A stretch of DNA of 53,025 nucleotides, taken from positions 1 to 53,025 of the forward strand of contig JACDAJ010000220.1 of assembly GCA_013695475.1 (NCBI GenBank). Reading direction: 5' to 3'. Each line of letters starts with the position of its first letter. Within the stretch, counting starts at the first letter, position 1. The notes under the pieces were generated by a model. That model was not told the origin of the DNA. It saw only the letters and a program-made list of their open reading frames with translations, and searched no databases. Of this stretch, positions 18,279 through 21,257 are shown one piece after another. The position numbers and the translations under genes were made by a program. This DNA is from Rubrobacter sp. (GTDB taxonomy: Bacteria; Actinomycetota; Rubrobacteria; Rubrobacterales; Rubrobacteraceae).

Positions 18279-18308
18279 TTGTCTACCAAATGAACGAAAG
18301 GTATACAA
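18279..18308. promoter_or_regulatory. Operator-like palindrome in the divergent lctP/regulator promoter
   Basis: Arms ttgtctacc (18279-18287) and ggtatacaa (18300-18308) pair at eight of nine positions around a 12-base centre. On the plus strand TTGTCT and TATACA are exactly 17 bases apart, a sigma70-like promoter. On the minus strand TTGTAT and TAGACA have the same spacing, so one symmetric sequence could serve both directions. The obvious ligand is the XRE-cupin protein encoded next to it. Confidence 0.5.
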
Positions 18309-18331
18309 GTAGTCGTGGCGGCGGGTCTTTG

Positions 18332-18898
18332 GTGGAGGCGGTTTCTTCGGGGCGGCTCGGGGTTCGGGTGAAGGAGTTCCGGCGTTCTCGGGGGATGACG
18401 CTCGAAAAGCTCTCCGGGGTATCGGGGGTGAGTCGGGCGATGATCTCCAAACTGGAGCGGGGTGAGAAAAGCCCGACGCTCGTGGTCGCGGCGAAGCTCG
18501 CCGAAGGATTTGGGGTGAGCCTCTCGCAACTCGTCGGCATCGAGGAAAAGAAACGAGTCGCCGTCGTGAGGAAAGAAAGTCGAATGGTCATGCGCGACCC
18601 GGAGACGGACTTCGAGCGGCATCTTCTCTCTCCGAGCTTCGGCGGCCGCGGCGTCGAGTTCATAAAAAACATCGTGTCGGAAGGAGGCACGTCCGGGGAG
18701 TTTCCGGCGCATCGGGAGGGGGTCGAGGAGTACATCTCGGTCGAAAAGGGGAGGATGCGGGCGGAGATCGGGGGCGAGGAAGTATTTCTCGAAGAGGGGG
18801 ATTCAATCTTTTTCGAGGCCGACGTGCCGCAACGTTTCGAAAACGCGGGCGAAGGCGAGTGTCATTATTATCTCGTCATTGATTCAAAGGGAAGCTGA
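18332..18898 (+). CDS. XRE-family regulator with cupin sensor domain
   Basis: 188 residues from GTG 18332. ATG 18290 is in frame and gives 202 residues, but it lies inside the putative promoter, so I prefer the later start. Residues about 5-65 are a helix-turn-helix (VKEFRRSRGMTLEKLSGVSG then SRAMISKLERGEKSPTL). The C-terminal half is a cupin barrel with the EYISVEKGRMRAEIGGEEVFLEEGD and VPQRFENAGEGE motifs. Such regulators sense a small metabolite through the cupin. Divergent to lactate permease, so control of lactate uptake is the natural guess. Confidence 0.85.
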   Translation: MEAVSSGRLGVRVKEFRRSRGMTLEKLSGVSGVSRAMISKLERGEKSPTLVVAAKLAEGFGVSLSQLVGIEEKKRVAVVRKESRMVMRDPETDFERHLLSPSFGGRGVEFIKNIVSEGGTSGEFPAHREGVEEYISVEKGRMRAEIGGEEVFLEEGDSIFFEADVPQRFENAGEGECHYYLVIDSKGS

Positions 18899-19059: not shown

Positions 19060-19563
19060 TTACGCCGCTTCTTCGGAGGCTTTGCCCGGTTTTTTGGTGG
19101 AGATTCTTTCTTTCCGTCCCTCGCGGTGGCCCCGGTAATATTCGAGGCGGTCGCGGGCATGTTCCCATCGGGCGAGGCGCGAGTTTCCGGTGAAGTCGGC
19201 TTGTTTTTCGGCGTATCGTCCGTCGAGCCAGCCGCACCAGTATGCTTCCGTGTGGTCTTTCGTTTTCCAGACCGTGGGGGAGGAGTCCGTTGGGAGGACT
19301 TCCGAGCCGCATGCCGGACACCAGTAAACTTTGTCTGGGAGGCGTTTCATCTCCGGGTGGCCGCATTCGCAGGCGTGTTTGCCGATTGCGTCGGGGAGGA
19401 CGTAAATGTTCCGGAGGGTTTCGAGCATCGGGCCTCCGATGACCTGATCGCAGGTGAAGCACCGCATCGAGACCCGCCCGAACGGACGAAGCTCCCCATC
19501 CTCGCATGTCGGGCAGATCAAAACTCGCTGCGCCCTCTGTGGAGTCTCCTTCGATTCACTCAT
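19060..19563 (-). CDS. Zinc-ribbon protein with LEYYRGHR C-terminal motif
   Basis: 167 residues; GAAAGGA lies before the ATG. The N-terminal two thirds hold cysteine pairs suited to zinc: CPTC, CFTC, a CEC/H cluster (KHACECGH) and CPAC, suggesting two zinc ribbons. The C-terminal 45 residues read WCGWLDGRYAEKQADF...RLARWEHARDRLEYYRGHREGR, strikingly similar to the end of the small protein encoded at 19754-19984. No known family recognised. The zinc ribbons suggest nucleic-acid or protein contact, but there is no direct evidence. Confidence 0.7.
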   Translation of the reverse strand: MSESKETPQRAQRVLICPTCEDGELRPFGRVSMRCFTCDQVIGGPMLETLRNIYVLPDAIGKHACECGHPEMKRLPDKVYWCPACGSEVLPTDSSPTVWKTKDHTEAYWCGWLDGRYAEKQADFTGNSRLARWEHARDRLEYYRGHREGRKERISTKKPGKASEEAA

Positions 19564-19753
19564 GTCGCAATCCTTTCATTCGCTTTCCCCTATGTATACG
19601 GATGATGGCTTAAACTCTTTAGCCGCACATCGCACAATTGAATGATTTTTTTCTAACGCAATTTACGTATGCGAGACGAATGGCGAACATGGAAGGAGAA
19701 AAGGGGCTTTCCATCGCGGGTTCCGTGGGGAGTGTCCTCACGAAACCCGCCTT

Positions 19754-19984
19754 TCAGGCGGCTCGAATCGTCCCGTCCGAGCGGCTCGATCTTCCAGCCC
19801 GGTGGCCCCGGTAATATTCGAGCCGATTCTCGGGGTCTTCCAGCGAAGCGAGCCGAAGGTTCTCGGCGAAAGTCTCTGACAGGTCGCCGTAAAATCCGTC
19901 CTCGTAGCCCCATCGGCGCGCCCCTCCCGGCGATTCCTCGAACGCCGTGGCGGTGATCCTCGCAGACGCTTCCAACCTCATCAT
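19754..19984 (-). CDS. Small conserved-motif protein, paralogous to the zinc-ribbon protein's C-terminus
   Basis: 76 residues; AAAAGGAGG lies immediately before ATGATG, so the second ATG (19981) is probably used. The sequence WGYEDGFYGDLSETFAENLR then RLEYYRGHRAGR matches the last 45 residues of the upstream zinc-ribbon gene almost residue for residue at the aromatic, Asp-Gly, Arg-Leu-Ala and LEYYRGHR positions. The shared module is therefore a small domain that exists alone and fused. Its function is unknown; the aromatic and basic content could suit binding to nucleic acid or a protein surface. Confidence 0.62.
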   Translation of the reverse strand: MMRLEASARITATAFEESPGGARRWGYEDGFYGDLSETFAENLRLASLEDPENRLEYYRGHRAGRSSRSDGTIRAA

Positions 19985-20078: not shown

Positions 20079-21257
20079 TCAAAGCGTGAACTCCCCCGTC
20101 GAAAGCTGTTCGAGAACTCGCTCCCGCAATTCACTGACGGGCTTCGGTGCCGAGTCGAGCGGAGCGAGGATGTCGCGGGAGCCTTCCGGGGCGGGGGCGT
20201 TTTCCGGGAGTATTTCGCGCGAGCCGTCCGGGAGTTCGATGAGGCGTTTTTTACCGCCGCGTTTGCCGCGCTTCGAGCGGTCTTCGCCGCCGACTTCCAC
20301 GATGTCGAGCGAATAATCCACCATCGGAGCGTCGGCGATCGCGCCGCCCACGCCGAATGCGTCGCATACGTCGTCGAGGTGGAGGATGTATTCTACGTCA
20401 ATGCCGCCCGAGGCGAAGATTTTGACATGCCCGTATCCGTGGCGGTCGAGTTCCCACCGCACCTCGCGCATGAGGTCGCGGAAGTCGCCCCGGCGGTTTC
20501 CGGGGGTGTCCATGCGTATGGATTCGATGGAGTCGGGGATGGCGTTCGCGGCGAGGAGCGCGCCGAACTTCTCGTCGTCGAAGGTGTCGATGAGGATGGT
20601 TCGGGGGACTTCCGGGGGCATGGCTTCATCGAAGGCTTTCGAGGCTTCGGCGGTCGAGCCGATCACGATGACGAGCGCGTGCGGAAGCGTGCCGGTCGCG
20701 GGGACGCCGAGGCGTTTCGTTGCGAGATCCACGGCCGCGAGGTCGCACCCCCCGAGATATGCCGCCCTCTCGATCATCGGCGCGACCGCCGGATGCATCC
20801 GCCTCGCCCCGAACGACACGACGGGTTTGTCTCCCGCCGCGAGCCGACACCGCGCCGCCCCCGTCGCGATCCCGGAAGCCTGGCAGAGAAAACCGAGGAT
20901 CGCCGTCTCATGCTCCGCGAACGCCCCATACGGCCCCGAAAGCGTGAGTACCGGCTCGTGCGGATGGCATATCTCCCCCTCCGGAACCGCCCGGACATCC
21001 ACGCCGTCGAGGCCGTCGAGGAGCGTCGCCACCTCGTCCATCCCGGCGACGACGAACCACGCGTCCGGGTCGGAGGTTTTATACGCGACCTCCGCGTGGA
21101 CGGGGGTATTTTCGAGACCTTTGTATCGGAGCGTCTCCATGGTTCGGTGGAAGTATGAGTCCGCGACCTCGGCGGCGAGAATCTCCGCGTCCGTCGCCGA
21201 GTTGAAACGCTTCACGCCGTTGTCGTCGGCCATGTCCGGCCCCTTTCCGAAATCCAT
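20079..21257 (-). CDS. pncB: Nicotinate phosphoribosyltransferase
   Basis: 392 residues. NAPRTase features: HAEVAYKTSDPDAWFVVAG, the GPYGAFAEHETAILGFLC helix, the conserved VVSFGARRMHPAVAPMIERAAYLGG block, DTFDDEK near the phosphoribosyl site, and HVKIFASGGIDVEYI near the C-terminal end of the barrel. It makes nicotinate mononucleotide from nicotinate and PRPP in the NAD salvage pathway. Length is closer to archaeal and short bacterial forms than to the 430-490-residue PncB. The start is ATG 21257; MADD nine codons on is an alternative. It has no leader if the shared -10 at 21267-21273 is used. Confidence 0.88.
   Translation of the reverse strand: MDFGKGPDMADDNGVKRFNSATDAEILAAEVADSYFHRTMETLRYKGLENTPVHAEVAYKTSDPDAWFVVAGMDEVATLLDGLDGVDVRAVPEGEICHPHEPVLTLSGPYGAFAEHETAILGFLCQASGIATGAARCRLAAGDKPVVSFGARRMHPAVAPMIERAAYLGGCDLAAVDLATKRLGVPATGTLPHALVIVIGSTAEASKAFDEAMPPEVPRTILIDTFDDEKFGALLAANAIPDSIESIRMDTPGNRRGDFRDLMREVRWELDRHGYGHVKIFASGGIDVEYILHLDDVCDAFGVGGAIADAPMVDYSLDIVEVGGEDRSKRGKRGGKKRLIELPDGSREILPENAPAPEGSRDILAPLDSAPKPVSELRERVLEQLSTGEFTL

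Follow-up and report, generated by a model that had tools for sequence, protein, structure and literature searches.

Genes and features of the locus

The window, that is, the whole stretch of 53,025 nucleotides of Rubrobacter sp. DNA analysed here, carries two adjacent small genes on its minus strand, both confirmed as open reading frames. One codes for a zinc-ribbon protein of 167 aa (positions 19060..19563) and the other for a protein of 76 aa (19754..19984), with the sequence AGGAGG just upstream. The 167-aa protein, called here the fusion protein, consists of two zinc ribbons and a C-terminal module predicted to be a helical hairpin; its gene has syntenic orthologues at 11 other loci. Ribbon 1 (19450..19515, minus strand) contains C17, C20, C35 and C38, and ribbon 2 (19309..19377, minus strand) contains H63, C65, C67, H69, C82 and C85 in the pattern HACECGHPEM...CPACG. 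The cysteines of ribbon 1 and the listed residues of ribbon 2 are invariant in alignment A3, all eight cysteines being retained in 12 fusion proteins. These 12 sequences have two conserved CxxC/CxC knuckles per ribbon, the pattern of C2C2 zinc ribbons.

The hairpin module lies at 19102..19248 in the fusion gene and at 19778..19924 in the 76-aa free gene (both minus strand), with profile matches of 6e-24 for the fusion copy and 4e-19 and 3e-19 for the free copy, and with helices in the AlphaFold (AF2) models of both proteins. A scan of the window located a palindromic operator-like site, ATCATTCAATTGTGCGAT (19629..19646, minus strand), 83 bp before the ATG of the fusion gene. Upstream of, and co-directional with, the fusion gene is a gene of the NAPRTase/QPRTase fold (20079..21257, minus strand; Pfam QRPTase_N and QRPTase_C), and a gene for an XRE-cupin regulator (18290..18898, plus strand; Pfam HTH_3 and Cupin_2) is convergent with it; each of these neighbours is present at 11 loci. 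Searches of the region revealed no structured RNA in Rfam up to E 1 and no promoter-like site in a consensus promoter scan, and terminator-like sites were not above the level of shuffled sequences.

A module shared by the two proteins

The initial annotation had proposed that the C-terminal part of the zinc-ribbon protein resembles the 76-aa protein, through a module that is free in one and fused to two zinc ribbons in the other. This is borne out. Residues 110–153 of the zinc-ribbon protein correspond to residues 25–68 of the 76-aa protein, and the local alignment of the two scores 108, compared with a mean of 27.3 (sd 5.0) and a maximum of 55 in 5000 shuffles, so the similarity reflects homology and not chance. 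A whole-genome search with the free copy as query also retrieved the fused copy (E 8e-8). The module is about 50 residues long. The signature first proposed for it, WGxxDGxY...LEYYRGHRxGR, is better rewritten as AYxxGWxDGR[FY]G...RLxYYRGHRxGR. At several positions with at least 90 per cent conservation, the free copy of the window has another residue (R in place of Y, Y of W, F of R and L of W).

Distribution and conservation of the family

The claim that the module matches no known family also stands: no family was found for it in Pfam, NCBIfam, PHROGs or PDB sequences. A search of actinobacteria gave matches confined to Rubrobacteraceae. Profile A1 detected the module in 28 of 40 Rubrobacteraceae genomes, and none outside this family at E <= 0.001 among 397 genomes sampled across the phylum. 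The broader profile A5 gave only weak matches outside Rubrobacteraceae (E 0.006–0.05); the best of them (G229, E 0.006) was rejected as a distant member, as it appears to be non-coding or a GC-rich frame. When 84,980 species genomes were scanned, 29 loci emerged, all of them labelled Rubrobacter, Rubrobacteraceae or unspecific actinobacterium. The module has no relatives in the viral, phage and plasmid collections searched, and a phage or plasmid origin was rejected on this ground. The module is an uncatalogued family that these searches place in Rubrobacteraceae only. In the library searched, no paper joins Rubrobacter, zinc ribbon and hypothetical protein.

The dN/dS ratio is about 0.12–0.31 both for the fusion gene and for the free gene usual in Rubrobacteraceae (four pairs of orthologues for each), which indicates purifying selection on the two.

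The family is modular and takes three forms: hairpin-only proteins of about 70–80 aa, ribbons-only proteins of about 95–105 aa, and the fusion. The window's own genome also codes for a ribbons-only protein, in which ribbons 1 and 2 stand alone (G000:C292). The ribbon and hairpin parts are separate genes in G012, and G017 has both a single-ribbon gene and a hairpin of divergent sequence; the fusion was found in neither genome. That the parts occur both alone and fused suggests that the ribbons and the hairpin act together.

Several variants were observed besides these forms. The single-ribbon gene of G017 is directly downstream of the apparent end of the NAPRTase frame (its C-terminus). Short single-ribbon relatives, made of ribbon 1 and an LxTLxxIxxLPE helix, are present in G017, G005 and G010 (L241, L242 and L243). 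At G023:C1:1013040-1013800 (L099), outside the usual synteny, a fusion gene is broken across two frames, so that its ribbons and its hairpin are not in frame with each other; this points to a pseudogene or else to an error in the sequence.

Gene neighbourhoods

The fusion gene belongs to an old block seen in 11 loci, as far as each contig extends. The conserved order is TrkH-like, arginase, gamma-glutamyltransferase, NAPRTase/QPRTase-fold, fusion gene, XRE-cupin, lactate permease and nitrilase-like, the TrkH, arginase and nitrilase labels coming from reading the sequences and not from a family search. In the other loci, the fusion gene alone is immediately downstream of the NAPRTase gene. The usual free gene occupies a different site, where carotenoid and FIST genes lie upstream of it and ABC1/ClpS or flavin-reductase genes face it. 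The usual paralogues are widely separated, for example at 0.55 and 1.44 Mb in G009. The tandem pair is therefore private to the window genome among the genomes compared.

In G001, the only other genome of the same genus searched (82 per cent complete), the sequence flanking the NAPRTase gene differs. There, the neighbour of the NAPRTase gene is a gene with collagen-like repeats instead of the fusion gene (G001:C178, L140, positions 1-1157), and the block is rearranged.

A promoter region of their own, TGTAACTTTTGTTCAAATTnnTTAA...CATTTGTGAA...TTGTGCTATA, is conserved upstream of the usual hairpin-only genes (L075, L079, L080, L081 and L084). It was rejected as a regulon box, since a pattern search with it matched solely upstream of the free genes themselves.

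Origin of the free copy in the window

The tandem arrangement had initially been explained by duplication plus fusion. The first half of this explanation is favoured; the second is not, in so far as it makes the fusion recent or ties it to the tandem pair, because the fusion is old and widespread within Rubrobacteraceae. Among the copies aligned, a one-residue loop insertion is present solely in the two window copies, which also have in common an identical DNA block of 23 nt across LEYYRGHR. The same codon is used at 16 of the 22 identical residues between them (expected 9.3 +/- 2.2). The loop insertion, the 23-nt block and the codon excess favour an origin in which the 3' end of the fusion gene was copied locally, by duplication or conversion. 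We infer that the direction was from the fusion gene to the free copy, which is best read as a probable partial copy of its neighbour, made locally and since diverged fast, and not as the unfused ancestor.

It is somewhat unlikely that the free copy instead represents a relocation of the free gene usual in Rubrobacteraceae. Its N-terminus, MMRLEA, is similar to MIREE, the usual start, and a clade uniting it with the usual free genes was not rejected (p-AU 0.5, in a tree from 53 columns). The window genome, which is 92 per cent complete, yielded no further hairpin gene, and there is none in the available sequence around the ABC1 homologue on C234. A relocated gene is nevertheless at odds with the unique loop insertion, the RLE and the 23-nt identical block that the free copy has in common with the adjacent fusion gene, and with its lack of the conserved free-gene promoter.

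The replacement of several conserved residues makes relaxed selection or decay of the free copy possible, and a decaying duplicate without function is a tentative reading that we hold at less than even odds. The four substitutions noted above fit such decay, as does the branch of the free copy, the longest in the domain tree (2.09, against a median of 0.19; tree from 53 columns), and the other loci compared have no orthologue at the same place. However, the frame is open and preceded by a Shine–Dalgarno sequence, its GC3 of 0.74 is coding-like and similar to that of its neighbours, and the helices of its AF2 model are confident.

A palindromic site and an apparent regulon

Alignment of the regions upstream of the fusion genes revealed a conserved box, an 18-bp palindrome, ATCACTCATTTGAGTGAT. 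It lies 77–97 bp upstream of the start in all 12 fusion genes, with 2–6 mismatches (background mode 9). Among 25 Rubrobacteraceae genomes searched, 16 have sites (1–11 each), and 16 other genomes have none; the reversed control pattern gave no sites. The hairpin-only and ribbon-only genes were also checked and do not have the palindrome.

In several genomes, the palindrome separates the gene of a histidine kinase (REC-PAS-HisKA_3) from that of a regulator with REC alone, the two genes forming a divergon, and in some a gene for a REC-GerE (NarL/FixJ) regulator is downstream of that kinase. The inverted repeat thus recurs upstream of genes that include two-component genes, a distribution that likely marks a NarL-type two-component regulon in Rubrobacteraceae. 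Regulators of the NarL type bind 7-2-7 inverted repeats, which makes a NarL/FixJ-type regulator the natural candidate for the palindrome; this assignment, drawn from the position of the sites and their NarL-like symmetry, remains putative. We found no description of a palindrome-marked two-component regulon in Rubrobacteraceae.

Sites were also seen near lipoprotein, SelD-like, RTX-repeat, cupin and multicopper-oxidase-like genes. Besides the one in the window, sites were recorded at G000:C273, C74, C115, C196, C244 and C249, and at L171-L210.

Zinc ribbons together with a conserved upstream palindrome could also be taken to mean that the fusion protein is itself a transcription factor that binds DNA, perhaps at the palindrome before its own gene. 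We consider this very unlikely: the palindrome is present in G005, G012 and G017, where the fusion gene was not found, and in G001, where it was likewise not found (in an 82 per cent complete assembly), and the protein has no match to an HTH domain.

Predicted fold of the hairpin

AlphaFold predicts the module to be a two-helix hairpin, the helices of which carry paired [YW]xxG[WH]xxG motifs. In the free protein, the helices span residues 19–32 and 51–69 (local pLDDT about 80–93, overall 76). Those of the fusion protein span residues 106–117 and 136–157, with more modest values (local about 66–84, overall 69).

A Foldseek comparison with the PDB placed chains of Escherichia coli ribosome modulation factor, RMF (6h4n_v and 9iot_y), at the top by probability (0.63) and not by E-value; the TM-score to the target is 0.57–0.63, and the E-values of 1.7–2.6 are not significant. 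Small unannotated phage proteins of 54–72 aa gave fold-match probabilities of 0.84–0.96. These matches raise the question of whether the hairpin is a relative of RMF (Rmf/CrpP fold), in which case the proteins would be ribosome-binding stress factors to which the ribbons add a second contact with rRNA. The first ribbon is weakly similar, in sequence and fold, to eL43/L37Ae ribbons, and the G[YWH]xxG spacing in both helices is similar by eye.

The sequence comparisons speak against such a relationship, which we regard as unlikely. No match above the cut-off was obtained for PF04957 in 25 genomes, Rubrobacteraceae giving none, or for NF041886 (Rmf/CrpP) in 347 genomes of the phylum, and 28 module members scanned singly matched no RMF family. 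The hhalign probability against an RMF alignment is below 1 per cent, that alignment being shallow (five close sequences). RMF sequences rank within shuffles against the hairpin HMM, the reverse test giving the same result, and several module members are acidic. Membership of RMF was rejected on the Pfam and NCBIfam cut-offs, hhalign and the shuffles. That the hairpin is an RMF is not supported; it may work like RMF. An RMF-like module for docking to the ribosome, reached through strong divergence or by convergence, seems to us rather improbable. Rmf-like hits were also noted in Actinobacteria (L025 and others); L025 is a small protein (G032:C10:246600-246668) with a stretch resembling RMF, AAWRQGYEARRAGRPNSNPYS, that stays under the Pfam cut-off.

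Proposed role

The explanation that we prefer, at a probability of roughly 0.42, combines a conserved fusion core, NarL/FixJ control through the palindrome and a free copy that is a local duplicate. The fusion gene is the conserved core gene, and its protein would most likely serve as a small regulated adaptor: its zinc ribbons may bind nucleic acid or a large nucleoprotein machine, while the hairpin may dock a partner. Through the palindrome at -83, a NarL/FixJ-type two-component system would set the level of the fusion protein. If it is produced at all, the free copy of 76 aa could serve only for docking, either on its own or in competition.

Taken alone, these data describe a lineage-specific family with a putative biochemical role, and the tandem pair is a local event. 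They also define a domain family that is in no catalogue, is clearly modular (with ribbons or hairpin by themselves, or fused) and is linked to a conserved palindrome, the mark of an apparent two-component regulon of Rubrobacteraceae. Rubrobacteraceae include radiation- and desiccation-tolerant members, and the site offers a direct experimental handle in a lineage noted for such tolerance. Were RMF-like docking true, Rubrobacteraceae would carry a zinc-ribbon-fused ribosome-silencing factor with a NarL-type two-component switch, and a free paralogue next to carotenoid and FIST genes.

Comparison with known systems

The palindrome resembles NarL/FixJ operators in being an inverted repeat with a 2-bp centre, found here beside a pair formed by a HisKA_3 kinase and a REC-GerE regulator. 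It differs from them in its heptamer, which is TCACTCA and not the heptamer generally known for NarL. With RMF (PF04957) and Rmf/CrpP (NF041886), the hairpin has in common its size of about 50 aa, the predicted two-helix hairpin and the G[YW]xxG motifs, whereas HMM, hhalign and cut-offs give no support and the CPY loop motif of the RMF type is absent. The ribbons are similar to those of eL43/L37Ae and other C2C2 ribbons in their CPxC...CxxC pattern, with weak matches up to E 3e-5, but they reach 24 bits against the NCBIfam equivalog cut-off of 87 for eL43/L37Ae, and are here arranged in tandem and in other surroundings.
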